64,000 nt of DNA from an uncultured Planktomarina sp. (GTDB lineage Bacteria > Pseudomonadota > Alphaproteobacteria > Rhodobacterales > Rhodobacteraceae). This document shows, one piece after another, positions 46,501-61,540 of the stretch (the first letter of the stretch is position 1; each line of letters begins with the position of its first letter). The stretch covers positions 372,001 to 436,000 of the forward strand of contig CALSQF010000004.1 of NCBI GenBank assembly GCA_943788425.1, in the 5' to 3' direction. Below the pieces are notes generated by a model. That model searched no databases and was not told the origin of the DNA. It was given only the letters and a program-made list of their open reading frames with translations. The position numbers and the translations under genes were made by a program.

Positions 46501-46590
46501 GGACAGGTGGCCGAGTGGTCGAAGGCGCACGCCTGGAAAGTGTGTAGGCGGGAGACCGTCTCCAGGGTTCGAATCCCTGTCTGTCCGCCA
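46501..46590 (+). tRNA. tRNA-Ser (anticodon GGA)
   Basis: The acceptor stem GGACAGG pairs with the terminal TCTGTCC, followed by discriminator G and encoded CCA. The anticodon stem CACGC/GTGTG holds loop CTGGAAA with anticodon GGA (decodes UCC/UCU). A long class-II variable arm and the T-arm CAGGGTTCGAATCCCTG confirm a serine tRNA. Its last 15 bases are the attachment core of the accessory region that follows. Confidence 0.97.
46576..46590 (+). other. Left attachment core (tRNA-Ser 3' end)
   Basis: The sequence cctgtctgtccgcca covers the 3' half of the T-stem, the acceptor strand and CCA of the tRNA. It is repeated exactly at 61279-61293, as expected for a tyrosine-recombinase attachment site at a tRNA gene. 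Confidence 0.75.
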
Positions 46591-46835
46591 AATATAGGCA
46601 TTAATTAATCTGATTTAATGTAATTATAATATTAATTTATATCTCTACCCACAACGCTACCCACAATGAAACATCAGATCAAAACAGAGTGTATCAGGGG
46701 TTACTGTACCCAATCGCTACAATTGAGCCGCAGGACCTAGGAACGGGGACCCGCATTTTAGGGCCCCGCGTCTCGGACCACGGGCCTTTAGTATTGGGAG
46801 CGTAAATTCATTGGGGGTAATTTTGTTTGGTAACG
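46591..46835 (+). repeat. Island-end repeat, copy A
   Basis: This non-coding stretch matches 61294-61540 along its length with many substitutions and small gaps. Conserved blocks include an AT-rich part (tataattataatatta-like), a doubled ctacccacaacg/ctacccacaatg word, catcagatcaaaacagag, aggggttactgt and ctcggaccacgggccttt. It is probably the attP-side end carried by each of two related elements. I see no gene in it. Confidence 0.75.
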
Positions 46836-46845
46836 CCATCTCTAT

Positions 46846-47010
46846 TCACGCACCAATTTCAAGCTAAACCGTGCTGCTGCTCTCGCTGAGTGGCGCCAAT
46901 TATTGAGCGCATAGATTCAGGCTGCGCCAGCAATCCGATGCGAGTTACTAGTTGTTTGACAGCACCTCCGCCAGCAATCCGATGCGAGCTCTCATTTGTC
47001 TGACGGAACC
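46846..47010 (+). mobile_element. IS6-type transposase remnant (C-terminal end and right termini)
   Basis: One frame reads NFKLNRAAALAEWRQLLSA then a stop, the C-terminus of an IS6-family DDE transposase, matching 48800-48864. After it the word cagcaatccgatgcgag occurs twice (about 46929 and 46974), each followed by a terminus-like ttgtttgacagcacc or tttgtctgacggaacc. This looks like two nested or duplicated right ends. The second terminus overlaps the last codons of the MFS gene. Confidence 0.65.
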
Positions 47011-48493: not shown

Positions 48494-48900
48494 CATTATC
48501 AGACAAAACTAACTTGAGCCGTGCAGGGCGGTTCCGTAGCCTCGCCGTATGACAAAACACTCCCCATTCAGGTACTTTAAAACGAGCCCCGAGATCATCC
48601 GCTTGGCTGTGATGCTGTATGTTCGTTTTCCGCTCTCACTCCGTAACGTGGAAGATCTTCTGCACGAACGAGGCATTGAGATCAGCCATGAAACAGTTCG
48701 GTTTTGGTGGAACAGATTTGGTCCGATGTCTGCAGAAGTTCGCTGCAGTCCACTCTTCAGTCCACAACCATTTCAATCAGGAACGCCACTTCTGCTCACG
48801 AGACAATTTCAAGCTCAATCGAACCGCCGCTCTTACTGAGTGGCGCCAACTATTGAGCGCATAGATTTAGGCTGCGCCAGCAATTAGATGCGAGTTCTCA
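48494..48900 (+). mobile_element. IS6-family element remnant with internally deleted transposase
   Basis: From ATG 48549 the first 60 codons read MTKHSPFRYFKTSPEIIRL... VEDLLHERGIEISHETVRFWW, the N-terminal domain of IS6-family transposases. Soon after NRFGPM the sequence jumps, in another frame, to SVHNHFNQERHFCSRDNFKL and TEWRQLLSA with stop at 48864, the normal C-terminus. The DDE catalytic core is therefore missing and the copy is dead. The left end is ggcattatcagacaaaact at about 48495. A related left end occurs at about 59030. Confidence 0.8.
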
Positions 48901-48918
48901 ATAATAGGGCCGCACAAA

Positions 48919-49797
48919 TCAATCTCCGATTGGTTTAGGTCCGGGGTCTTTGGTCAATGGCAACAGCGATGTTCGGATGCGCCGCAGGTTCTCTTTGACT
49001 CGTTCTGGCCGCTTTCTCGCAGCACCGGCGGCCAGGACATCGACAATCGCAATGTAGACAAGACGCGAGGCTGAGGGTTTGTAAATGTCTTGATCTTCAG
49101 GAATATCGATTTGGATTGAAATGTCCGTTAGCAGTGCAAGGTCTGAGCCGGTTTTGGTTAAGCTGATCGTAGTTGCGCCATATTGTTTGGCGATTGCAAT
49201 GCTATCCAAAAGTTCAGCAGGTTGACCACTTGATGAAATTGCGACCAGCACATCACCTTCGATCAGGGTCGAGGATAGCATGCGCTGGAGATAACCGTCG
49301 GCATGCGCCTCTGCGGGAATACCAAGCCGAAAAAACCTGTTGGCCCCCTCACGAGCAACATTGGCAGAGCCCCCGCCAACACCAAGAAAGGCTATGCGGC
49401 GGGCATCGGCAAGTTTGTCTGTTGCTTGTTCAATCGCCTCACTATCCAGTTGCCCACGAACCAGCGTCAGAGTGTCGACCAATGTACTGAACACCTGTGT
49501 TACCAATTGCCCGGTTTCAGATTGATCTCCGCTTGCCCCCCCAAGGTATTGCAAACTGACCGCCACGTTTTGCGCAAGTCTGATTTGAAAGTCGCGGAAC
49601 CCTTCGCAGCCGATTGTTGTACAGAATCGATTCACTGTCGCGACAGAAACCTCGGTTGCCGCTGCAATCTCGTGCTGCGAAAGAAAAGAGATTCCCTCAA
49701 GGTTTGCCAGCACAAAATCAGCAACCAGTTGCTCGCGCTTGGGGAAAGCTCCGTTCAGAGTGCGCACATGCGAGATGAGATCGATAACTTCGAGCAT
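48919..49797 (-). CDS. RpiR-family transcriptional regulator
   Basis: A 292-residue regulator with an N-terminal HTH_6 domain (about residues 15-75, SQHEIAAATEVSVATVNRFC as the recognition helices) and a C-terminal SIS sugar-phosphate-binding domain (about 120-250, GVGGGSANVAREGANRF and VAISSSGQPAELLDS). RpiR/MurR/HexR proteins respond to phosphosugars or related acids. It is transcribed after ridA with a 16-base gap and away from the ABC operon, which it most likely controls through two palindromes at 50227 and 50299. Confidence 0.93.
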   Translation of the reverse strand: MLEVIDLISHVRTLNGAFPKREQLVADFVLANLEGISFLSQHEIAAATEVSVATVNRFCTTIGCEGFRDFQIRLAQNVAVSLQYLGGASGDQSETGQLVTQVFSTLVDTLTLVRGQLDSEAIEQATDKLADARRIAFLGVGGGSANVAREGANRFFRLGIPAEAHADGYLQRMLSSTLIEGDVLVAISSSGQPAELLDSIAIAKQYGATTISLTKTGSDLALLTDISIQIDIPEDQDIYKPSASRLVYIAIVDVLAAGAARKRPERVKENLRRIRTSLLPLTKDPGPKPIGD

Positions 49798-49813
49798 TGT
49801 CTTGGTGTGCCTC

Positions 49814-50212
49814 TCATACGGGCTTATATGCCACTACATCCATTTCAACCTTGGCGTCTACCATTAGCGCACTTTGCACTGTGGCCCGCGCGGGTGGATG
49901 TGCGGCGAAATATTTAGCAAAGACCGAATTGAAACTGGTGAAATCCCGTGGATCGTCCAGCCAAACGCCGACTTGTACCACATGCGCCAAGCTGCAATCT
50001 GCAAGTTTTAGAACGGCGATGATATTGGCTATAACAGCTTCTGACTGTGCGATGATCCCCCCTGTGACAACTTCGCCGTCAACTGTCGGGACTTGCCCGG
50101 ATACATAGATAAAATCCCCCGCACGCACGGCTTTAGAAAAGGGGCGCGGCGTGCCGCCAGCAGCAGCGTCTGCGCCGTCAAAGCGGATGATTTTTTGTGG
50201 AGTAGTTTGCAT
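49814..50212 (-). CDS. ridA: RidA-family enamine/imine deaminase
   Basis: A 132-residue RidA/YjgF protein with FIYVSGQVPTVDGEVV, and the active-site Arg109 and Glu123 in PPARATVQSALMVDAKVEMD. RidA hydrolyses reactive 2-aminoacrylate-type enamines released by PLP-dependent dehydratases. The presence of a D-serine-dehydratase-like enzyme in the divergent operon gives it a direct job here. It is co-transcribed with the RpiR gene and divergent from the ABC operon. Confidence 0.92.
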   Translation of the reverse strand: MQTTPQKIIRFDGADAAAGGTPRPFSKAVRAGDFIYVSGQVPTVDGEVVTGGIIAQSEAVIANIIAVLKLADCSLAHVVQVGVWLDDPRDFTSFNSVFAKYFAAHPPARATVQSALMVDAKVEMDVVAYKPV

Positions 50213-50226
50213 ATTGGTAACCTTTA

Positions 50227-50241
50227 TGTAAGTTATTTACA
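50227..50241. promoter_or_regulatory. Candidate RpiR operator, site 1
   Basis: The perfect palindrome TGTAA-GTTAT-TTACA (extended by one more pair to ATGTAA/TTACAT) lies just upstream of ridA. The same arms and spacing recur at 50299. The form resembles known RpiR-family boxes such as HexR (TGTAAT...ATTACA). Confidence 0.65.
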
Positions 50242-50298
50242 TTTTATACTCGGTTTAGCTGACTTTTCCAAATAATATTTGACTATTATTGGCTAAAT

Positions 50299-50313
50299 TG
50301 TAAGATATTTACA
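50299..50313. promoter_or_regulatory. Candidate RpiR operator, site 2
   Basis: TGTAA-GATAT-TTACA, identical to site 1 except for one base of the spacer, 72 bases from it and 45 bases before the start codon of the solute-binding protein gene. Two matching sites in a divergent gap next to an RpiR gene suit repression of both arms. Confidence 0.65.
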
Positions 50314-50357
50314 TCTAAATAAAATTAACTTGAAACATCATAACGAAGGAGATTGAG

Positions 50358-51899
50358 ATGAAACTGAAAATTTGGATGAAATCTGCGCTGGCAGTGGGGG
50401 CTTTGATGACCCTGACAAGCGGGGCATATGCCGATGGCATGTTGCGCTATGCTACCGTGGGCGAACCTCCCAGCCTTGATCAACAGGTTGTTACCTCTGA
50501 TCTGGCAACCACCATTGCGCATCATATGTTTGAAGGTTTGTACACCTTTAATGCGTCCAATGCGCCAGTACCGCTGCTAGCATCTGGCGAAACTGTGTCC
50601 GCAGATGGCAAAACAATTGTAATTGCGCTGCGCGAGGGTGTTAAGTTTCATAATGGTCAGGCTATGACATCTGCCGACGTCCTGGCATCACTTCAGCGTT
50701 GGGGCGAATTTGGCTCACGTGGCAGCCTGATTTTTGATCACGTCGACAGTGTTGAGGCGAGTGGAGATTATGAGATCACCATAAATCTTAAAGAGCCCTT
50801 CGGCCCTTGGAAAAATCTAATGGCCTTTATAAACGGTGGTCCCGCGATCTATCCAGCTAGCGTTATGGAAGGCGCTACAAAGGAACCAATCTCTCCTGAT
50901 CAGTACATTGGGACAGGTCCATACAAGTTCAACGAATGGGAGGCCAATCGCTATGTAGAGTTGGTGCGCTTTGACGGTTACATTTCGCCCGAGGGAGCGG
51001 CCGACGGATACGGCGGTGAACGAGCGACTAATTTTGATACACTCCGTTTTATCCCAGTGTCTGATGTGGGTACTCGGGTCGCCGGGGTTCGCGCTGGAGA
51101 CTACGACTATGCCGAAAGCATTCCGGGTGATTTGTTTGCAGATTTGGATGCAGATACGGGCGTGAAAACCATGCTTAATGGCGGGCCAATTTTTGGTTTG
51201 GTCTTTCTAAACTCCAGCGATGGTCCATTGAAAGAAAACTTTGCGCTGCGTCGCGCCATTCAGACGGCCATCGACAAAACACCCGCCTTGCAAGTTGCTA
51301 TTGGGCCTGAAGGTCTGTGGCGCGCCAATGGCTCTTTTGCTCCAGAGGGCAGTGTTTGGGCTACTAAAGCAGGCACCGAAAACTATAGTCGTGGAGACGC
51401 AGAAGCGGCAAAAGCTATGGCGGCAGAGGCCGGCTACGACGGTCAACCGATCAAGTTCATGGTCTCGACCAACTATCCGTTCCATTATGACAGTGCGATC
51501 GTTTATACTAAGCAGTTGGCGCAGGCGGGGTTCAATATTGACCTTCAAGTCTATGACTGGGCGACACTGATCGAAAAGCGCGCGCAGCCTGACCAGTGGG
51601 ATTTGTTCTTTACACACCATGGTTTTGTGCCGGATCCAATCTTGATCTCTGTGATGAACGACAATTACCCCGGTTGGTGGGCAACTCCTGAAAAGAAAGC
51701 TTTGAAAGATCGTTTCACAGCGTCCTCAGACCCGAGTGAGCGTCAGAAAATTTGGGCGGAGCTTCAGGCCTTGATCTACGAGCAGGTGCCAACAATGAAG
51801 ACCGGCGACGTTTATACCTACAACATTGCCTCTCCAAAACTGAAAGGCCTTGGCAAACAGACTTTGATTTGGCCAAGCTTCTGGAACGTTTCCAAGTAA
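50358..51899 (+). CDS. ABC transporter substrate-binding protein, family 5 (peptide type)
   Basis: A 513-residue periplasmic protein with a Sec signal peptide (cleavage after GAYA, before DGMLRYA) and the SBP_bac_5 fold: YATVGEPPSLDQQVV, KFHNGQAMTSADVLASL and YIGTGPYKFNEW. Family members bind di- and oligopeptides, amino-acid derivatives or opines. It is the first gene of the operon with a strong GAAGGAGA site. Downstream lies a hairpin, then the permease and ATPase genes. Confidence 0.93.
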   Translation: MKLKIWMKSALAVGALMTLTSGAYADGMLRYATVGEPPSLDQQVVTSDLATTIAHHMFEGLYTFNASNAPVPLLASGETVSADGKTIVIALREGVKFHNGQAMTSADVLASLQRWGEFGSRGSLIFDHVDSVEASGDYEITINLKEPFGPWKNLMAFINGGPAIYPASVMEGATKEPISPDQYIGTGPYKFNEWEANRYVELVRFDGYISPEGAADGYGGERATNFDTLRFIPVSDVGTRVAGVRAGDYDYAESIPGDLFADLDADTGVKTMLNGGPIFGLVFLNSSDGPLKENFALRRAIQTAIDKTPALQVAIGPEGLWRANGSFAPEGSVWATKAGTENYSRGDAEAAKAMAAEAGYDGQPIKFMVSTNYPFHYDSAIVYTKQLAQAGFNIDLQVYDWATLIEKRAQPDQWDLFFTHHGFVPDPILISVMNDNYPGWWATPEKKALKDRFTASSDPSERQKIWAELQALIYEQVPTMKTGDVYTYNIASPKLKGLGKQTLIWPSFWNVSK

Positions 51900-51909
51900 G
51901 GTTCTTCCC

Positions 51910-51939
51910 AGCCCCCTGCTAAACTTAAAGCGGGGGGCT
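51910..51939 (+). terminator. Strong intercistronic hairpin without T tract
   Basis: An 11-bp stem (AGCCCCCTGCT with AGCGGGGGGCT, one G-T pair) around an 8-base loop, between the binding-protein and permease genes. Without a T run it is more likely a partial terminator or mRNA 3'-end protector that keeps the binding-protein message more abundant than the rest, as is common in ABC operons. Confidence 0.6.
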
Positions 51940-51970
51940 AACTCACCCATTCCAGTCAATTGAGGTTAAT

Positions 51971-52918
51971 ATGCTAGCGTATACTGCAAAACGCCTTTTG
52001 ACTCTTATCCCAACGCTTCTGGCAGCATCTATTTTGGTGTTTCTTTTTGTGCACCTAATCCCTGGGGATCCTGCTGCAATCCTGTTGGGCGACACGGCGA
52101 CGCCTGAAGAGGTGGCACAACTTTCTGCTGAAATGGGCTTTGACCGTCCCCTCTATGTCCAATATTTTATTTGGCTGGGTAATGTCTTGCAAGGCGATCT
52201 CGGCACTTCAATTTTCTTTCGCCAACCGGTCTTATCGGTCATCGGCAGTGGGGCTGAGACGTCGATCTTGCTCGCAAGTATGACAATGATTTGGATCATC
52301 CTCATTGGCTTACCAATTGGCATTTTATCTGCTACCAAACAAGGAACCTGGATTGATCAGATTACTTCAAGCGGGGCGATGTTGGCTGCGTCCATCCCGA
52401 CCTTCTGGCTTGGCCTTTACCTGATCATGATCTTTTCTGTGACACTGGGATGGTTCCCGAGTTCTGGCTTTCCGTCGCTGTCGGATCACGGCGGTATAAC
52501 AAACTTACGCTATCTGCTGCTTCCAAGCCTGACCTTAGCCGCGCCAAACGCAGCTTTGATTGTTCGGTTGGTCCGCGCCTCTATGCTGGATGTCTCGCGC
52601 GAGGATCATGTCCGCACCGCCCGGGCGAAAGGGCTGCATCCGACGCGGGTAGCCATCAAGCACATATTCCGCAATGCTTTGATCGCTGTTGCTGCAGCGT
52701 TCGGATTTACTTTTGCTGCCCTGATATCTGAGGCGGTTGTGACTGAAACTGTGTTCTCGCTCCCTGGAATTGGACGACTTGTCGTTCAATCTATCTTGCG
52801 CCGGGATTATCCGGTCATACAAGGAGTCATCCTTGTGATTGTTGTTCTATACATGGTTGTCAACTTGGCCGTGGACCTCGCCTATGCGCGGTTAGATCCA
52901 AGGGTATCTCTAAAATGA
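51971..52918 (+). CDS. ABC transporter permease, DppB-like
   Basis: A 315-residue inner-membrane permease with an N-terminal signal-anchor (LLTLIPTLLAASILVFLFVH), the LIPGDPA loop and about six membrane helices. The cytoplasmic EAA loop that contacts the ATPase reads RTARAKGLHPTRVAIKHIFR. GAGG lies 9 nt before ATG 51971. The stop overlaps the start of the next permease by 4 bases (ATGA). Confidence 0.94.
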   Translation: MLAYTAKRLLTLIPTLLAASILVFLFVHLIPGDPAAILLGDTATPEEVAQLSAEMGFDRPLYVQYFIWLGNVLQGDLGTSIFFRQPVLSVIGSGAETSILLASMTMIWIILIGLPIGILSATKQGTWIDQITSSGAMLAASIPTFWLGLYLIMIFSVTLGWFPSSGFPSLSDHGGITNLRYLLLPSLTLAAPNAALIVRLVRASMLDVSREDHVRTARAKGLHPTRVAIKHIFRNALIAVAAAFGFTFAALISEAVVTETVFSLPGIGRLVVQSILRRDYPVIQGVILVIVVLYMVVNLAVDLAYARLDPRVSLK

Positions 52919-53766
52919 ACACTTTGATTTTCTTCCAAACTGCATTTGCCGGCCGCAGGCTTGCCACATTAGGTTTTCTCTGGCTCGTCATGATTACAGT
53001 AGCGGCATTGGCGGCACCGCTCATTGCTCCCTTTGATCCGCTTGAGATTGACCCGGTGGGCCGATTGGCAGAACCGGGATGGCCAAATCTCTTTGGCACA
53101 GACCACTTTGGCCGTGATACGTTCTCGCGCGCGGTATATGGCGCCCGCATGACGGTGATCATTGGGACGGGCAGCGTCGCTGTTGCTCTTTTAGCAGGTG
53201 GCTTGATTGGTATGATCTCAGCCTATTTTACCCGATTGGGCCATTTTCTTATGCGCTGTGTGGATGTCCTGATGGCTTTCCCCGCTTTACTGATGGCGCT
53301 TGCCTTGATCACGCTGCTGGAGCGAAGTGTATTCAACACGATCCTTGTGATCGGTATTGTCTACGCCACCACCACCGCCCGGATCCTATATGGTATGACA
53401 TTGAAATTGAGGGGCGAAGTGTTCGTTGATGCTGCTGTCTGCTCTGGCGCTGGACACTTTTCCATTCTCTTTCGTCACATTCTGCCGAATCTCGTCTCAC
53501 CTTTGCTGGTGCAAGCCAGCTTCATATTTGCCTTTGCGCAGTTACAGGCCGCTGCACTTGATTTTCTCGGTCTTGGCCTGCCACCCGAAGTGCCAAGTTG
53601 GGGCAATATGCTGTCCGAAGAACGCATCTATGTCACCCGCGCCCCATGGCTTCTGATCTATCCCGGCATGCTGATTGTGTTGTCAGTTTTTTCTATGAAC
53701 CTAGTGGGGGACGCGCTGCGTGACAGCATCGATCCGCGCTTTAAAGACGATATTGCGGGGGTCTGA
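52915..53766 (+). CDS. ABC transporter permease, DppC-like
   Basis: A 283-residue permease. The N-terminal helix is followed by the conserved periplasmic LFGTDHFGRDTFSRAVYGAR. About six membrane segments and an EAA-like loop (VFVDAAVCSGAGHFSILFRHI) are seen, then the FLGLGLPPEVPSWGNMLSE end typical of DppC/OppC. It forms the channel heterodimer with the preceding gene, which it overlaps by 4 bases. Confidence 0.94.
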   Translation: MNTLIFFQTAFAGRRLATLGFLWLVMITVAALAAPLIAPFDPLEIDPVGRLAEPGWPNLFGTDHFGRDTFSRAVYGARMTVIIGTGSVAVALLAGGLIGMISAYFTRLGHFLMRCVDVLMAFPALLMALALITLLERSVFNTILVIGIVYATTTARILYGMTLKLRGEVFVDAAVCSGAGHFSILFRHILPNLVSPLLVQASFIFAFAQLQAAALDFLGLGLPPEVPSWGNMLSEERIYVTRAPWLLIYPGMLIVLSVFSMNLVGDALRDSIDPRFKDDIAGV

Positions 53767-53770
53767 TCAC

Positions 53771-54745
53771 ATGGCATTGCTGGAGGTTCAAGATCTTGAG
53801 ATAGCCGTCAGGACAAAGGGCAAGCTTTTGCCAGTTGTTCAAGGCGTGTCCTTTGACGTTGATGACAATGAAACTCTGGGCATCGTTGGTGAAAGTGGTT
53901 GTGGCAAAAGTCTTACTGCGCTGGCGATTATGGGACTTTTGGGGGGCACCACCGTGCGGATCACTGGCGGGAATATCCGCTTTGATGGTATGGATTTGTT
54001 GACGCTTTCTGACGGTGAACGGCGCAGCATCATGGGCAACCGGATGGCGATGATTTTCCAAGAACCGATGACGAGTCTCAACCCTGTCTACCGCATTGGT
54101 GACCAAATCATCGAAAACATTCGCCAGCATCAAAAAATGACCAATGCACAGGCGCGCGACCGCGCGGTTGAATTGCTGAGCCTTGTGCGGATCCCAAACC
54201 CGTCTGAACGTGTAGACAGTTTTCCCCATCAAATGTCTGGTGGACAACGTCAGAGAGTCATGATCGCAATGGCTTTATCTTGTGATCCTAAACTGCTGAT
54301 CGCAGACGAGCCCACGACTGCGTTGGATGTGACAGTGCAGAAAGAAGTTCTCGATTTGATGGCGGACCTTCAGACCCGTATGGGGACAGCTATCGTTCTG
54401 ATCAGCCATGATCTAGGGGTGATTTCGGAGACCTGCGATAAGGTCGCGGTTATGTATCGCGGCCGCGTGGTCGAGGCCGCTGCAACAGAAAATCTGTTCA
54501 CAGAATTGGCCCATCCTTATACGCGCGGATTGTTGAACTCAATTCCGGTGGTAGATAGCGATGTTGATTGGCTTGAGGCGATACCCGGCCGAGTGCCGAC
54601 ATTGGAAGAAGAGTTAACCGGCTGTGCGTTCCACCCGCGTTGTGCTTTGGTGACAAAGTTATGCGCCACCACCGTGCCTCAAGAGATTGAGTACAAACCT
54701 GGCCATTCTGTCCGGTGCCATTTTTCTGGAAAGGTCGCACCATGA
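53771..54745 (+). CDS. ABC transporter ATP-binding protein, DppD-like
   Basis: A 324-residue ATPase. Walker A GESGCGKS is at 40-47, the signature is [12 protein letters not shown], Walker B is [13 protein letters not shown], and the switch His is in LISHDLGV. The C-terminal oligopeptide-type extension with the cysteine-containing [18 protein letters not shown] segment, which can hold an Fe-S cluster in this family, is present. ATG 53771 starts 5 bases after the permease stop. It overlaps the second ATPase by 4 bases. Confidence 0.94.
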
Positions 54746-55554
54746 CTGAACCTTTACTTCGTGTAATTGACCTTAAGACACATTTTCGCATCAAAGCTTC
54801 ATGGATGTTTGGCGAGAAGCAGTTGATTAAGGCTGTTGATGGGGTTTCTTTCGACATTGCTCCAGGGGAAGTGCTTAGCCTTGTTGGTGAATCTGGGTGT
54901 GGAAAATCCACAGTGGGGCGTACACTTACCCATCTGGATCAAGCTACATCTGGGCGGGCGTTGTTTGAAGGCCAAGATTTTTTAGTGATGTCACCCATTG
55001 AATTCCGTCCCTTACGACGCGAAATTCAAATGATATTTCAAGACCCTTTTGCCTCCCTCAACCCGCGCCTCAAGATTGAACAGACTTTAGGAGAGCCGCT
55101 TTTTATCCACGGGTTATGCAAGACTTGGGACGAGGCGCGCGCCAAAATAGCGGTGATGCTGGAAACTGTTGGAATGGACCCACTGGTTATGAAACGCCAT
55201 CCGCATGAGTTTTCGGGCGGCCAGCGCCAACGCATCGGGATTGCACGTGTTATGATCCTGAAACCCAAACTGGTGATCGCCGATGAGGCCGTATCGGCGT
55301 TGGACGTGTCTATTCAGGCGCAGGTTCTGAACCTTCTCAAAAAACTGCAACAGGATAGTGGTGTATCGATGCTGTTCATCAGTCATGATCTGGGTGTTGT
55401 GCGCCACATCAGCGATCAGGTAGCGGTCATGCATGAGGGAAAAATCGTGGAAATTGGCCGGAAACGCCAGATATTTGAGGCTCCCCAGCACGAATATACT
55501 CGTAAACTTCTCGAGTCTATCCCGAGGGTCAAAATCGGAAAGGAGGTTGCGTGA
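54742..55554 (+). CDS. ABC transporter ATP-binding protein, DppF-like
   Basis: A 270-residue ATPase. Walker A GESGCGKS is at 49-56, QMIFQDPFASLNPRL is the Q-loop, FSGGQRQRIGIARVM the signature and VIADEAVSALDVS Walker B. The usual Pro in the Walker B ADEP is Ala here (ADEAVSALD), a common variant. It lacks the long C-terminal cysteine region of its partner and ends right after LLESIPRV, which is short for DppF. The stop overlaps the metallopeptidase start by one base. Confidence 0.93.
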   Translation: MTEPLLRVIDLKTHFRIKASWMFGEKQLIKAVDGVSFDIAPGEVLSLVGESGCGKSTVGRTLTHLDQATSGRALFEGQDFLVMSPIEFRPLRREIQMIFQDPFASLNPRLKIEQTLGEPLFIHGLCKTWDEARAKIAVMLETVGMDPLVMKRHPHEFSGGQRQRIGIARVMILKPKLVIADEAVSALDVSIQAQVLNLLKKLQQDSGVSMLFISHDLGVVRHISDQVAVMHEGKIVEIGRKRQIFEAPQHEYTRKLLESIPRVKIGKEVA

Positions 55555-57020
55555 TGCAAAGTTCCAAGCGTGTTTTCCTAGGGTCAATTGCGACAGAGAC
55601 TAACACGTTTTCGCCGCTGAGGACAGATATTCAGGATTTTAAGGAAAGCTTCTATGCCCCCCCAGGAGGACACCCGAAGACGCCGACTTTGTGTAGTGCC
55701 GTCTATCCGGTAGCCCGCGCTCGAGCAGCCGAATTTAACTGGCAAATTGTTGAGGGAACCGCGTCTTGGGCAGAGCCCGGTGGGATTGTAAATCAGCACA
55801 CGTGGGAATTTCTACGTGATCAGCTATTGGCCGAACTCAGAGCAGCAATGCCTGTTGATATCGTACTTCTTGGCCTGCATGGTGCCATGGTTTCGCAAGG
55901 CTGTCTGGACTGTGAGGGGGAATTACTCGCCGCAGTGCGTGAGATTGTTGGCACATCGGCGATTATTGGTGCGACCTTTGATCCGCACAGTCATCTTTCC
56001 GAACGCCGGATGGAAAATGCAAATTTGATTACGGTATTTAAAGAATTCCCGCATACCGACTTCGTTGAAGTGGCTGAGAGCTTGGTGACCTTGGTGCAGC
56101 GCGCATCACTGGGTGATGTAAGTCCTGTGATCAGTAGCTTTGATTGTAAAATGATCGAAATTTTTCCAACTAGCCGAGAACCGATGCGCGGGTTTGTAGA
56201 CAAGATTAAAGCACTTGAAGGGCAGGGTTCAGTTCTAACCATCTCAGTCATTCACGGATTTATGGCTGGTGATGTACCTGATCTTGGATCGCGGATCGTG
56301 GTAGTCACAGACAATGACCGAAGCGGTGGTGACCGACTTGCCGCAGAGCTAGGGGCCGAATTGTTCTCAATGCGTGGTAAGACGCGGCCCGAATTTTTAA
56401 CGTTACAAGCTGCTTTTGATAAAGCTGAGGCTACCAGAGCAATGCCTGTGGTTGTCGCTGATGTGTGGGACAATCCCGGTGGTGGCGTCCCGGGCGATTC
56501 CACGATATTTTTGCGCGAAATGTTGCGTCGCAGAATTAAGAACGCTGCTTTTGCTACGATCTGGGATCCAATTGCTGTCCGCACTTGTTTTTCCGCTGGA
56601 GAGGGTGCTGCGTTTCGACTGCGGTTTGGTGCCAAAATGTCGGAGTATGCTGGTGAGCCACTGGACGCGCAGGTCATCGTCCGACGAGCTATGCGCGATG
56701 CAGTCCAGAGCTTTGGGCAAAGTGTTGTCCCATTAGGTGACGCAGTATGGATTGAGGTAGGTGGGATCGACGTCATATTGAACTCGGTACGGAGTCAGGT
56801 GTTCAACCCTGACGTTTTTTCCAATTTTGGAATTGATCCTAAGCGAAAGAAAACTCTCATCGTTAAGTCGACGAACCATTTTCAAGATGCATTCTCTCGA
56901 ATTTCGCAAGATATCCTATATGTTGCTGTGGACGGTCCCTATCCCAACAATCCCGAAACAAACGTCTATAAAAATCTGACTAGAGACATCTGGCCTCGTG
57001 TGGAGAACCCTCATGGATGA
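55554..57020 (+). CDS. M81 family metallopeptidase (MlrC-like)
   Basis: A 488-residue protein of the MlrC family, named after microcystinase C, which cleaves the linear tetrapeptide left from microcystin. The N-terminus is LGSIATETNTFSPLRTDI. Likely zinc ligands are Asp143 and His145 in ATFDPHSHLS and His167 in FKEFPHTDF. The MlrC C-terminal domain includes VADVWDNPGGGVPGDST. Most M81 members sit next to ABC importers and act on unknown amide bonds, often with D-residues. AAGGAGG lies 7 nt before ATG 55554. It overlaps the next gene by 8 bases. Confidence 0.92.
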   Translation: MQSSKRVFLGSIATETNTFSPLRTDIQDFKESFYAPPGGHPKTPTLCSAVYPVARARAAEFNWQIVEGTASWAEPGGIVNQHTWEFLRDQLLAELRAAMPVDIVLLGLHGAMVSQGCLDCEGELLAAVREIVGTSAIIGATFDPHSHLSERRMENANLITVFKEFPHTDFVEVAESLVTLVQRASLGDVSPVISSFDCKMIEIFPTSREPMRGFVDKIKALEGQGSVLTISVIHGFMAGDVPDLGSRIVVVTDNDRSGGDRLAAELGAELFSMRGKTRPEFLTLQAAFDKAEATRAMPVVVADVWDNPGGGVPGDSTIFLREMLRRRIKNAAFATIWDPIAVRTCFSAGEGAAFRLRFGAKMSEYAGEPLDAQVIVRRAMRDAVQSFGQSVVPLGDAVWIEVGGIDVILNSVRSQVFNPDVFSNFGIDPKRKKTLIVKSTNHFQDAFSRISQDILYVAVDGPYPNNPETNVYKNLTRDIWPRVENPHG

Positions 57021-58077
57021 CAACATAAACTCGATCCACACTCCTGCTTTCATCGTGAATGAAGCTGTCGCGCTGCACAATATAATAGCGTTCCAAGGCC
57101 ATTGCGACGATGTTGGTCTTGCCCTCCGCCCTCATATCAAAACCCACAAGTCCATCCGTTTTGCCAAAGCTCAAGTGGCGGCGGGCGCAATCGGCATCAC
57201 ATGCCAAAAAATCAGTGAAGCTGAAGCGATGGTCGATACCGGAATTGATGATATTTTGATCACCTTTAACCTTATTGGCGCTGAAAAACTGGACCGCCTG
57301 CGTGTCCTATCGAGCCGTCTTTCAGCTCTTTCGGTTGTGGCGGACAACGCGGAAGTAATCCAGGGATTGGGACAGGCCTTTGAAGGGGCCCAGCGCCCGC
57401 TGAGCATTTTGGTTGAATGTGACACGGGAGCTGGGCGTTGCGGAGTGCAAACCCCAAGGGCAGCATTGGAATTGGCTGAAAAAATTTCCCACACATCTAG
57501 CCTAATCTTCGGCGGCTTGATGACCTATCCGGCGGCAAATGGCGCCAAGAATGCAGCCCATTTCATGCGCGAGACAAAACGGCTTTTGGACGCAAAAGGA
57601 ATAGCGTGCCCGGCCATCTCATCAGGTGGCTCACCAGATATGTGGACTGCGACTACAAGTGGCATCATTACCGAATACCGCATTGGAACCTACATCTACA
57701 ATGACCGTTCACTGGTCCAGCGTGGGACTTGTACCTGGAATGACTGTGCTGGCCATGTGCTCGCCACAGTTGTCAGCATGCCCACCCCTAGCCGCGCGAT
57801 CATTGACGCTGGATCAAAAGTACTCACCTCTGATCTATTGGGATTCTCCGATTATGGCCATGTCCTTGGTCACCCAGAAATAAAAATAGTTGGGCTTAGC
57901 GAAGAGCATGGCATCTTGGCGGTTACCGGAGAAAGCCAACTGGTCATTGGAGCGCGCATCAGGATCGTTCCAAACCATGTATGTGTGGTATCCAACATGT
58001 TCGATGATATTTGGATTGAAAATGAAAACGGAAGTCTCACACAATTAAAAATTGATGCTCGAGGTTGTGTGATTTAG
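57013..58077 (+). CDS. DSD1-type PLP enzyme (D-serine dehydratase / D-threonine aldolase-like)
   Basis: A 354-residue fold-type III (alanine-racemase-like) PLP enzyme. The PLP lysine is Lys43 in LRPHIKTHKS; ECDTGAGRCGV and ISSGGSPD bind the cofactor. Near the C-terminus His322 and Cys324 (NHVCVV) form the metal site. In characterised relatives His-x-Cys with zinc is found in D-serine dehydratase, while D-threonine aldolases have His-x-Asp, so a dehydratase is more likely. Such a reaction releases an enamine, the substrate of the RidA encoded in the divergent arm. Confidence 0.88.
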   Translation: MDDNINSIHTPAFIVNEAVALHNIIAFQGHCDDVGLALRPHIKTHKSIRFAKAQVAAGAIGITCQKISEAEAMVDTGIDDILITFNLIGAEKLDRLRVLSSRLSALSVVADNAEVIQGLGQAFEGAQRPLSILVECDTGAGRCGVQTPRAALELAEKISHTSSLIFGGLMTYPAANGAKNAAHFMRETKRLLDAKGIACPAISSGGSPDMWTATTSGIITEYRIGTYIYNDRSLVQRGTCTWNDCAGHVLATVVSMPTPSRAIIDAGSKVLTSDLLGFSDYGHVLGHPEIKIVGLSEEHGILAVTGESQLVIGARIRIVPNHVCVVSNMFDDIWIENENGSLTQLKIDARGCVI

Positions 58078-58080
58078 AAG

Positions 58081-58974
58081 ATGGAAACTAAAATGAAGCG
58101 GGTTGCCTGTGTCGGTGAGGCCATGATCGAACTGTCCATGATGGGCGATGATGTACAAATGAACGTGGCTGGTGATACACTTAACACCGCAATCTATCTG
58201 CATCGCACAGCGCCACAAGTGTCGGTGGATTATATCACCTGCCTGGGAAACGATACGTTTTCAGACCGCATTTTTGCCTTTATAGCGAATCACGGTGTTG
58301 GAAATTCGAAGATCAAACGGATCGTTGATGAAACGCCTGGACTTTATGCCATCACCACATCACCAGAGGGTGAGCGTAACTTCACGTATTGGCGCAGCAA
58401 CTCGGCAGCTCGGCATTTATTTTCAGACGGTGATTTCACCATTTTGGAGGCCTATGACGCAGTCTATTTATCCGGAATTTCAATCGCAATTTTGCCTCAT
58501 GCCGTCCGGCTTTCTTTGCTTACGTGGTTGGATAAATATTCAATTTGTTTGATTTTTGATAGCAACTACAGGCCGCATCTTTGGGAAAGTCTAGAATCTG
58601 CTCAGCAGATGACATCGGCCTTTTGGGCGCGGGCTGATATTCTATTGCCGTCAATAGACGATGAAATGAGCCTGTTTGACGAAACCGAAGATCAAGTGGC
58701 CTTTCGCTTTTTCTCTACGGCTAAGTCCGGCGCCTTAAAACGTGGGGCGCATGGACCGTTATCTTTGGGCATTGATGTGCATGCAAGCTATCTATCATCG
58801 TCGAAAGTAGTGGATACCACAGCAGCTGGCGATAGTTTCAATGGTGGCTATTTGGGGGCCCTTTTTGGTGGAAAAAGCCAAGAGCAGGCTTTGAAAATAG
58901 GTCATGACCTTGCGACTCGAGTGATTCAATACCGCGGTGCAATAATCCCAAAACGGACCGTGACACAAAACTAA
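58081..58974 (+). CDS. PfkB-family sugar kinase (2-keto-3-deoxygluconate kinase-like)
   Basis: A 297-residue ribokinase-fold kinase. CVGEAMIEL opens the fold, AGDTLNTAIYL lines the substrate site, and the catalytic base is Asp251 in DTTAAGDSFNGGYLG. The pattern of the substrate loop is closest to KdgK. The segment before LKRGAHG is shorter than usual. A KDG-like kinase in an operon ruled by a SIS-domain regulator suggests that the pathway makes a keto-sugar acid whose phosphate is the inducer. ATG 58093 is an alternative start. It is the last gene of the operon. Confidence 0.88.
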   Translation: METKMKRVACVGEAMIELSMMGDDVQMNVAGDTLNTAIYLHRTAPQVSVDYITCLGNDTFSDRIFAFIANHGVGNSKIKRIVDETPGLYAITTSPEGERNFTYWRSNSAARHLFSDGDFTILEAYDAVYLSGISIAILPHAVRLSLLTWLDKYSICLIFDSNYRPHLWESLESAQQMTSAFWARADILLPSIDDEMSLFDETEDQVAFRFFSTAKSGALKRGAHGPLSLGIDVHASYLSSSKVVDTTAAGDSFNGGYLGALFGGKSQEQALKIGHDLATRVIQYRGAIIPKRTVTQN

Positions 58975-59945: not shown

Positions 59946-61265
59946 CTACGAATTTCCAGTCATTCGAGTCACTAGATTAGACCTTTGAATTTTCTTCCCG
60001 TCTGAATGTCGAACCTCTTCCCAACTTGGATCATTGGCGATGAATTCTCTTATTTTAGAGTTAAATCTTGGTAATCCAGGGATATATTTGATACCCACCT
60101 CGTCCATGTCTTTTCTGAAGTAGATATATACTTCATTGAAAAGCTTTGCGTCGCGTTTTGGTACAGCTCTTCTTAAACCACCATCTTCTAGCCAGTTTCT
60201 CACGGTGTCCGCTTCTTTCATCCACTGGGTGGTTGCCTCTTGGCAAGAGGCTGGAACCGAGTAGTGGCCGTTTTTAAAGACTATTGCCGCTTCGCGGATG
60301 GCCTCTGAAATCAAAATGTCTCCCTGCTCTTTCATTAACTTTGTTTCAAAGTCTGAGATCCGCTCTTCAACAGGTATTGTTCGACTGAAGGGTATCACCA
60401 GCAGTCGGCGCTCGATCCCCGCATCTATGCCGCCTTTAAAACTTGGCAGTACATTAGTCGACAAAATATGCATAGCTCTGGGTTTGAACTCCACTGGCTC
60501 TTTGTAGATGATCTTTGCGGTAACAGGGTCTCCCGTAATTACAGCTTTGAATTTGTCCGATGAGATAGCTGCAGCGTTTGATAACTCATCAGACAGATTT
60601 GCTGACGCCCCGATTAACTTGGCCAGATATTGTTCTTTATCCATGTCACCTGGCGATATGCTACAAATGACACCATGCGGAAGTATACGCCTCAGCACCT
60701 CTTGAATGGTGGATTTACCATTCGCTGCAGATTGCCCATAAAGGATGAATGCTTTCGGTTCTTTTAACCGCGTCCCAACCCCACAGATAGAAGCGCCATA
60801 CATTTGTAAGATTAAAGAGCCATACTCTTCGGACTCTGCACCAAAACACCCAGTGAATAATGTGTCTAAGAGACCTGAGTGAGCTGCGGTCACTCTTGGT
60901 CTATAGCTATATTGAAGGCAGAACCTCTGCCTTAGGTCAGCGTGATGTTGAAGTAGTTCAACGATACCGTCTTCTGAAATTTTAACAAAACCATTCAGCA
61001 TGTTAACGCCCTTGGCAGCATTTTCGAAAAATCTGTTGCTGTTGAGCATTACTGAAAGTTCGTTAATGACGCCGTCGATAAATGCCTTGCTCAGTTTCAG
61101 CTTTGCTTTTTTAACTTTTGCGCCATCAAATTTGTGAATGGTTCGCCGAATTTCTATAGGAATGATCTCTTGCCAGGCGATTGTATTATAACCCCAAAAG
61201 CGGCCTTCATCAAAAATAACATTCTCAAATTGTTCTTTGAGTAGAGGTATAGTTTCTTTGGCCAC
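59946..61265 (-). CDS. SF3 / D5-type phage or plasmid primase-helicase, probably lacking its N-terminal part
   Basis: A 439-residue helicase of the P4/D5 type. The D5_N-like region spans about residues 60-160, Walker A is GQSAANGKSTIQ, Walker B lies in LSDELSNAAA, and sensor HILSTNVLPSFKGG with arginine finger region GIERRLLVIPF follows. A winged-helix tail ends the protein. P4-family proteins are usually much longer with an N-terminal primase, absent here. The start is a GTG at 61265, only 14 bases from the attachment core, with a weak AGGA upstream. Codon use is more AT-rich than that of neighbouring genes. It is a replication or excision module of a phage-satellite-like element. Confidence 0.8.
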   Translation of the reverse strand: MAKETIPLLKEQFENVIFDEGRFWGYNTIAWQEIIPIEIRRTIHKFDGAKVKKAKLKLSKAFIDGVINELSVMLNSNRFFENAAKGVNMLNGFVKISEDGIVELLQHHADLRQRFCLQYSYRPRVTAAHSGLLDTLFTGCFGAESEEYGSLILQMYGASICGVGTRLKEPKAFILYGQSAANGKSTIQEVLRRILPHGVICSISPGDMDKEQYLAKLIGASANLSDELSNAAAISSDKFKAVITGDPVTAKIIYKEPVEFKPRAMHILSTNVLPSFKGGIDAGIERRLLVIPFSRTIPVEERISDFETKLMKEQGDILISEAIREAAIVFKNGHYSVPASCQEATTQWMKEADTVRNWLEDGGLRRAVPKRDAKLFNEVYIYFRKDMDEVGIKYIPGLPRFNSKIREFIANDPSWEEVRHSDGKKIQRSNLVTRMTGNS

Positions 61266-61278
61266 TTCTATTTGGCTT

Positions 61279-61293
61279 CCTGTCTGTCCGCCA
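61279..61293 (+). other. Right attachment core
   Basis: An exact copy of the last 15 bases of the tRNA-Ser gene (cctgtctgtccgcca), without the rest of the tRNA. The adjacent bases differ from the tRNA copy on the left side, defining the crossover segment. Confidence 0.75.
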
Positions 61294-61540
61294 TGTATAC
61301 CAATTAAGTATCTGATTTAATATAATTATAATATTAAAACAAATATCTACCCACAACGCTACCCACAATGAAACATCAGATCAAAACAGAGTTAATCAGG
61401 GGTTACTGTGCCTAATCGCTACAGTTCACCCGCAGGACCACGGACCGGGCCCCCCTATCATAGGGCCCCACGTCTCGGACCACGGGCCTTTAGTATTAGC
61501 GTTGTAGATTCATTGGGTGGGGGTTTTGTTTACTGCCATT
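61294..61540 (+). repeat. Island-end repeat, copy B
   Basis: The diverged partner of 46591-46835, starting right after the right core. It keeps the AT-rich block, the doubled ctacccacaa word, catcagatcaaaacagag, aggggttactgt and ctcggaccacgggccttt in the same order. As it lies outside the inner element, it marks the beginning of a second, related element. No gene is seen in it or in the following 250 bases, apart from the promoter area of the next gene. Confidence 0.75.

Follow-up and report, generated by a model that had tools for sequence, protein, structure and literature searches.

Oxidative chitin utilisation by the ong pathway is described for Pseudoalteromonas prydzensis ACAM 620 (PMC9537276). 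According to this source, the route starts with N-acetyl-D-glucosaminate (GlcNAc1A), a C1-oxidised chitin sugar. OngB deacetylates it to D-glucosaminate (GlcN1A), OngC deaminates GlcN1A to 2-keto-3-deoxygluconate (KDG), and KdgK phosphorylates KDG to 2-keto-3-deoxy-6-phosphogluconate (KDPG). Growth on GlcNAc1A is reported to require OngD, a RidA protein; the repressor OngR belongs to the RpiR family, and OngA acts as a beta-hexosaminidase. The present study concerns a ten-gene cassette at positions 48919-58974 of the window, a stretch of 64,000 nucleotides (G000:C4:372001-436000) from the genome of an uncultured Planktomarina sp. (2.54 Mb, 19 contigs, 92.97% complete). The cassette encodes an importer, an M81 zinc hydrolase, a pyridoxal 5'-phosphate (PLP) enzyme with a metal motif and a KDG kinase-type protein. 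What is known of M81 enzymes comes mostly from the degradation of toxins.

We propose that the cassette imports and degrades a 2-acylamino-2-deoxy-aldonate, likeliest GlcNAc1A, with the M81 enzyme as the N-deacylase. We give this reading a probability of about 0.6.

Gene content and proposed pathway

The ten open reading frames (ORFs) are intact and tightly packed, all frames are open, and a Pfam assignment fits each. ORFs, gene order, strands and Pfam domains thus bear out the first-pass annotation, which had described ten undamaged genes in a divergent rpiR-ridA pair and a plus-strand operon. The features are:

48919-49797, minus strand: rpiR, RpiR/SIS regulator, HexR nearest (Pfam HTH_6 and SIS; NCBIfam HexR)
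49814-50212, minus strand: ridA, RidA enamine/imine deaminase (Pfam Ribonuc_L-PSP, 9.4e-27)
50227-50241, plus strand: operator-like palindrome TGTAAN5TTACA, site 1 (2 in the window, 0 in 100 shuffles)
50299-50313, plus strand: second copy of this operator-like palindrome, site 2 (spacing to site 1, 72 bp)
50358-51899, plus strand: periplasmic solute-binding protein (SBP), family 5 (Pfam SBP_bac_5, 2.5e-65)
51971-52918, plus strand: dppB, DppB-type permease (Pfam BPD_transp_1)
52915-53766, plus strand: dppC, DppC-type permease (Pfam BPD_transp_1, OppC_N)
53720-54745, plus strand: dppD, DppD-type ATPase (Pfam ABC_tran, oligo_HPY; GTG start listed, later ATG possible)
54715-55554, plus strand: dppF, DppF-type ATPase (Pfam ABC_tran, oligo_HPY; GTG start listed, later ATG possible)
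55551-57020, plus strand: M81 zinc hydrolase, which may act as N-deacylase on a 2-acylamino-2-deoxy-aldonate (Pfam DUF1485 1.2e-74, MlrC_C 1.3e-49)
56998-58077, plus strand: fold-III PLP enzyme, HxC metal motif of the dehydratase type, putative D-glucosaminate deaminase (Pfam D-ser_dehydrat, Ala_racemase_N)
58081-58974, plus strand: PfkB kinase of the KDG kinase type (NCBIfam KdgK 2e-79; PDB 3lhx)

The degradation would start with the import of GlcNAc1A, the terminal sugar of chitin fragments oxidised at C1, by the ATP-binding cassette (ABC) transporter. The M81 hydrolase may remove the N-acyl group and yield GlcN1A. Elimination of the beta-hydroxyl and loss of the amine, catalysed by the metal- and PLP-dependent enzyme, would give KDG and ammonia, and RidA may speed up the loss of the imine. 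The kinase would phosphorylate KDG to KDPG, which can be cleaved into pyruvate and glyceraldehyde 3-phosphate if one of the two KDPG aldolase matches of the genome serves this step. A HexR-like RpiR repressor would occupy the two palindromes of the divergent promoter and be released by a phosphorylated product, probably KDPG. The sequences themselves show the gene content, the intact frames, the conserved zinc site, the HxC motif, the operator-like sites, and the co-occurrence and swapping of genes; we infer all reactions, what the regulator binds and what the transporter carries.

The kinase has ketodeoxygluconokinase 3lhx as its best solved relative (5.9e-59), and KdgK is its best NCBIfam model, with 267.1 bits under a cut-off of 400. 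RpiR and RidA domains are both present in the cluster, as in the ong pathway. The sequence of import, amide hydrolysis, PLP chemistry, RidA, phosphorylation and sensing had been proposed from the gene order; as a prediction, it gains support from the comparison with ong and from the survey below. The D-configured or beta-hydroxy compound postulated at that stage is likely a sugar acid that is both, an N-acyl-D-glucosaminate. A peptide substrate is not required, because TRAP (tripartite ATP-independent periplasmic), Dpp-type and sugar-type importers, and amino-acid-type importers where M81 is missing, serve the same module.

Recurrence of the module and its partner genes

The survey comprised 85 loci with a homologue of the PLP enzyme, 68 close (at least 42% identity) and 17 distant. 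Loci are given by their L numbers. The set consisted of the window, L003, five plasmid loci, 39 stretches from a phylum search and 39 further places from an order search. Six plasmid loci had been chosen by hand among the matches listed; L006, with M81 and no PLP match, was left out of the PLP set. The phylum-search stretches were the second PLP gene of the window's own genome and 38 hand-picked among the matches listed, a choice that passed over several strong matches in two genera and took in some weak ones. The order search of 390 genomes found the PLP enzyme in 38 at 1e-60 and M81 in 51 at 1e-100. Gene labels come from tblastn searches with window or survey proteins and from hidden Markov models (HMMs) seeded from the survey itself. 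Family names of proteins with no Pfam, NCBIfam or PDB match express similarity to a labelled protein.

Conserved neighbourhoods of M81 with PLP and kinase genes, which the first-pass annotation had suggested as a check, were found in the 85 loci: M81 and PLP genes recur together, with RpiR in every M81-positive stretch by HMM and often with RidA and KdgK. Within 7 kb of the PLP gene, tblastn detected M81 (at least 40% identity) in 36/68 close loci and RpiR in 32 of these 36. RidA was that near in 48/68 close versus 1/17 distant loci, and KdgK in 15/68 versus 0/17. HMMs applied to whole stretches detected RpiR in 37/37 M81-positive, 7/31 M81-negative close and 1/17 distant loci; the corresponding values were 30/37, 16/31 and 3/17 for RidA and 14/37, 5/31 and 0/17 for KdgK.

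The hydrolase of the module is exchangeable. A dihydroorotase-like amidohydrolase is located within 7 kb of the PLP gene in 11/68 close loci, in none together with M81 (at least 40%), and 21 loci have neither hydrolase. Like M81, it is also found beside the Dpp-type (L161, L182) or TRAP (L160) transporter. The best PDB match is named dihydroorotase (2ogj), and we take the family to be 'cog3964'. On the PLP tree, labelled by hydrolases within 9 kb with M81 given precedence, eight changes of the M81 label are required, and supported branches force at least five of them. The amidohydrolase label needs ten changes for 12 rows, barely under chance. The hydrolases have therefore been swapped repeatedly.

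Glycoside hydrolase family 20 (GH20) beta-N-acetylhexosaminidases were detected by HMM in 14/37 M81-positive, 0/31 M81-negative close and 0/17 distant loci (Fisher 1.6e-6, too small a P value because loci share ancestry). The test was prompted by L170, itself one of the 14; without it, the count is 13/36. The 14 include the TRAP-type loci L151, L169 and L173. In eight loci with a sugar transporter (L047, L166, L170-L172, L175, L176, L181), the GH20 gene lies across rpiR. A nagA gene directly follows the PLP gene in six M81 loci of the sugar-transporter form, and a ROK kinase gene comes next in three (L171, L172, L181). NagA of L170 reaches the equivalog level (TIGR00221, 242.3 bits, cut-off 225.65); the other NagAs are 58-74% identical to it.

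The module occurs with three importers. The form that prevails in the window's family has RpiR divergent from TRAP, M81, PLP, in some loci KdgK, and RidA; plasmids carry it as well, in Paracoccus sp. SCSIO 75233 and in Phaeobacter gallaeciensis DSM 26640 (pGal_C110). The Dpp-type form was found in the window, L003, L150 and L188. The third form has RpiR, divergent from a small protein, M81 and PLP, with a sugar ABC transporter. It was found in Rhizobium brockwellii (L009) and in further genomes from that class, several of which also share its family.

Three side observations concern the partner genes. A protein of about 160 amino acids, F14, is encoded within 7 kb of the PLP gene in 15/36 M81 loci (e.g., L042 8845-9339). 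It had no Pfam match and may be a component that the pathway as drawn here lacks. The sugar-transporter form has a second M81 protein beside GH20 (L170 1968-3296 and relatives), 27-28% identical to the window M81; its pocket residues differ, with N41 replaced by serine in 8/9. The PLP stretches L195-L197, from three genomes of family f135, had no RpiR, RidA, M81 or KdgK match.

Enzymes, regulator and rival substrates

The window M81 protein belongs to the family of the microcystinase MlrC (7ylq) and shares its zinc and catalytic residues. Thirty-eight uninterrupted copies with at least 48% identity were aligned; the fragment L163 was dropped. The zinc ligands E39, D167, H169 and H191 (MlrC numbering) are invariant in 38/38, and so are N41, H133, D332, D341 and K464. 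For the last zinc ligand, the MlrC paper gives both H196 and H191; since the printed chain has a glutamate at position 196, the alignment was read with H191. The differences are located where MlrC binds its substrate. W59, F67, E70, F96 and Q468 are replaced by A, T, L, W and H in 38/38 copies, and S392, S485 and R492 almost always; the paper ties residues including Q468 to linear microcystin (PMC9982164). The score to the MlrC model is 370 under a cut-off of 999. The M81 enzyme should be active, on a substrate other than microcystin. The proposed base of MlrC, E70, is lost to leucine, so another residue must serve. All three transporter forms have the same pocket residues, which argues for one substrate. 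The position of the gene, the swapping with an amidohydrolase and the lack of another candidate deacylase in the operon are the basis on which a deacylase function is inferred.

The PLP enzyme has fold III, the metal site and the HxC motif in common with D-serine dehydratase and D-threo-3-hydroxyaspartate dehydratase. HxC is present in 66/66 close PLP enzymes, the window included (two of the 68 rows with interrupted reading were dropped), and in 6/6 of the OngC type; the distant set has 6 HxC and 11 HxD. The overall nearest structure is D-threonine aldolase 4v15, whose motif is HxD, and the window enzyme forms a separate subfamily. It scores 186 bits to the BhcC 3-hydroxy-D-aspartate aldolase equivalog, under the cut-off of 690.

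Orthology with OngC, which had been expected, was rejected on the low identity. Ong-type clusters of four genomes (L214-L217) served as stand-ins for the P. prydzensis OngB and OngC sequences in all identity and tree comparisons. They encode RpiR and an OngC-type PLP enzyme, divergent from D-aminoacylase, RidA, a solute:sodium symporter (SSS), KdgK, KDPG aldolase and GH20. The window PLP is 22-25% identical to the OngC type and its relatives 24-29%. The PLP enzymes of L214-L217, L218 and L219 form one branch (100/100), apart from the window type. L064 and L208-L210 were also considered as ong clusters and rejected; they have no KdgK or GH20 match and look like N-acyl-D-amino-acid clusters.

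The strongest sign that both PLP types may do the same job comes from L219 and L044. L219 combines an OngC-type PLP with KdgK, IclR, RidA and a transporter of the amino-acid type encoded by four genes; in L218, the contig ends after the first part of this set. L044 has the gene set of L219 with a window-type PLP instead. The two PLP enzymes are 23% identical, versus 54% for IclR, 60% for RidA, 61-72% for the transporter and 37% for KdgK. The order is partly different: in L044, the PLP and KdgK genes flank the transporter on the opposite side. Beside these, L007 has the set of polar-amino-acid-type transporter (PAAT), RidA, IclR and PLP with no KdgK match, and the kinases of L177-L179 are 26-29% identical to that of L044. 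The PAAT, RidA, IclR, PLP and KdgK set, complete in L219 and L044 and partly seen in L218, L007 and L177-L179, is thus found with either PLP type and perhaps serves free D-glucosaminate.

The regulator scores 210.8 bits to NCBIfam HexR (cut-off 296) versus 63.9 to MurR. The divergent spacer between the rpiR-ridA pair and the SBP gene has 145 bp and contains both palindromes. The exact motif TGTAAN5TTACA occurs at six places in the genome, two in each of three copies of the cassette, so the protein looks like a local regulator. A motif with at least 9 of 10 matches was found upstream of rpiR in 20/38 M81 loci (L006 and L188 included; L163, with no tblastn RpiR match, left out) versus 10/2357 background windows. 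These are 20/24 TRAP- or Dpp-type loci and 0/14 others. The palindrome is close to TGTAATTAAATTACA, the motif predicted for HexR of Vibrio parahaemolyticus (PMC11906056). RccR, another RpiR protein, is described as binding 15-bp palindromes 68 bp apart and responding to KDPG (PMC5489143). The window regulator shares the family and 15-bp palindromic operator-like sites with HexR and RccR, its paired spacing being 72 bp; unlike HexR, it is under the HexR cut-off. By analogy, KDPG may be its ligand.

An alternative, implied by the first-pass annotation, is a generic catabolism of N-acyl-D-amino acids or of peptides of D-beta-hydroxy-amino acids (D-Ser, D-Thr, 3-hydroxy-D-Asp), in which M81 cleaves peptides or N-acyl-D-amino acids and the kinase acts on a side product. 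The solved relatives of the PLP enzyme are D-serine dehydratase, D-threonine aldolase and the D-3-hydroxyaspartate aldolase and dehydratase, and a Dpp-type importer suits peptides. L208-L210 carry RpiR, D-aminoacylase, RidA and PLP with no KdgK match. This alternative leaves the recurrent KDG-type kinase, GH20, nagA and sugar importers unexplained, and KdgK near the PLP gene at close and at no distant loci also speaks against it. We consider it unlikely.

Less probable still is an amino-sugar-acid pathway in which M81 opens a lactone or cleaves an amide other than N-acetyl, with deacetylation elsewhere. Short-chain dehydrogenases, possible makers of a C1 lactone, are encoded beside PLP or rpiR at several loci (PF00106 in L149 and L170), and E70, the proposed base of MlrC, is leucine in 38/38 copies. 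The absence of M81 near the PLP gene in amino-acid-importer/IclR loci fits either reading. Against it stand the alternation of M81 with an amidohydrolase-superfamily enzyme and the operon itself, which has no further candidate deacylase. Murein scavenging, with a muropeptide or a substrate derived from N-acetylmuramic acid (MurNAc) and a MurR-like RpiR, is hardly credible: GH20, nagA and ROK genes would suit cell-wall sugars too and family-5 binding proteins include murein-peptide binders, but the regulator is far closer to HexR than to MurR, Pfam found no MurNAc etherase among the ten genes and KdgK would be left without a role.

Several points weigh against GlcNAc1A degradation through M81. 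Kinase, RpiR, PLP enzyme and M81 are each under the cut-off of their best NCBIfam model. We know of no M81 enzyme that acts on amino-sugar acids, and no link between the two was found among the titles and abstracts listed, all from open-licence papers; the deacylation step is predicted from context. The genome, at 92.97% completeness, had no match to GH20 or to lytic polysaccharide monooxygenases (LPMOs) of family AA10, so the organism could only scavenge. GH20 is beside 14/37 M81 loci only, and these share ancestry. The enrichment of nagA and ROK genes with M81 is weak (Fisher 0.04 and 0.07), and M81-negative loci also have NagA (one locus) and ROK (four loci). L149, one of the 11 amidohydrolase loci, has an additional M81 protein of 25-29% identity, under the 40% line. 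Among the stretches of the Dpp-type relatives, of which L003 and L150 are the nearest, KdgK was not seen in L003, L150 and L188, nor PLP in L188. The sugar-transporter form and the ong-type L214-L217 have no operator at 9/10 or better. The exchange of PLP types leaves the substrate unfixed, because OngC is described as active also on D-Ser and D-Thr (PMC9537276).

Genomic surroundings and relation to known systems

A scan of genome contigs for relatives found one locus, L003, on a chromosome in a metagenome-assembled genome of an uncultured Tateyamaria sp. It aligns with window positions 48829-58082 over 9254 bp, gap-free, with 84.9% identity. Across nine genes, pN/pS is 0.108. By this alignment and ratio, the cassette is under purifying selection. 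The operon is real and conserved, and it probably works. The homology ends at the end of the PLP gene, which makes the kinase a variable part of the cassette. The term 'self-contained' has to be amended in this respect.

The decayed insertion sequence (IS) and phage surroundings noted at first pass were recovered as two features:

48499-48870, plus strand: degraded IS6-family transposase remnant flanking the cassette on the left (three-frame reading; NCBIfam transpos_IS6 below cut-off)
59946-61265, minus strand: DUF5906/VapE-like gene flanking the cassette on the right, which may derive from a phage or satellite (domain match)

The transpos_IS6 match covers 48540-48836 (1.2e-15, 57.8 bits, cut-off 125); a Pfam search of the remnant pieces gave no score. 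No island boundaries were established. A 254-bp direct repeat (46576-46828 and 61279-61531) resembles attachment (att) sites beside tRNA-Ser. With 36 genomic matches to 46576-46946, the repeat flanking the cassette belongs to a dispersed family, and integration at the tRNA was rejected on this ground. Part of this family (46576-46946, 48499-48918, 61279-61531) resembles the end of a degraded IS6-family transposase.

The 5' part of the cassette (window 48724-55913) is present in at least three whole or partial copies, two of which end at contig edges. The second copy (C13:1-7118, L060) is 98.8% identical over 7118 bp, with M81 cut by the contig edge; the third, at the end of C6 (L226 7347-10606), is 97.8% identical over 3261 bp. 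Homology to the other copies begins inside the IS6 remnant, at 48724 and 48796. Differences to the C13 copy are patchy, with none over 48877-51169 and many over 51170-52687, which suggests gene conversion or mosaic assembly. The genome also encodes a second fold-III PLP enzyme (C2:43600-44649, L059), 42% identical to that of the window. Short fragments of the dispersed repeat flank this gene at either end, and solute-binding-protein genes are nearby.

A wider claim is tentative, at slightly less than even odds: the M81 subfamily would be an amino-sugar-acid N-deacetylase. Together with a metal/PLP enzyme outside the OngC subfamily, it would form another route for chitin sugars oxidised at C1, assembled independently of the first and widespread in Alphaproteobacteria, on plasmids and here in multiple copies beside IS6 remnants. 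If so, a large group of 'metallopeptidases' would be renamed for a sugar-acid role, and two enzymes of the oxidised-amino-sugar route would have been replaced by non-orthologues. Salvage of oxidised chitin sugars would extend to roseobacters and rhizobia, outside the groups with a complete pathway in the published survey. That survey of ong and lpmo genes reports complete pathways in Gammaproteobacteria and one Betaproteobacterium (PMC9537276); the close loci found here belong to the window's class.

At first pass, no characterised pathway with this gene set was recognised. The ong pathway, as described in PMC9537276, follows the same logic; the exact combination of M81 and this PLP subfamily is different. 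Common to both are RpiR, RidA, an N-deacylating hydrolase (proposed here), a fold-III PLP deaminase (likewise proposed), a kinase whose best match is KdgK, under its cut-off in the window, and the proposed product KDPG, and GH20 is near 14/37 M81-PLP loci of the survey. Unlike ong, the window has M81 in place of the OngB amidohydrolase, with no amidohydrolase among the ten genes by Pfam, and the importer is of the ABC type, or of the TRAP type at other loci, where ong has SSS. By orthology, the cassette is not a member of the ong family; it is predicted to be a variant of the ong route with two non-orthologous enzymes.

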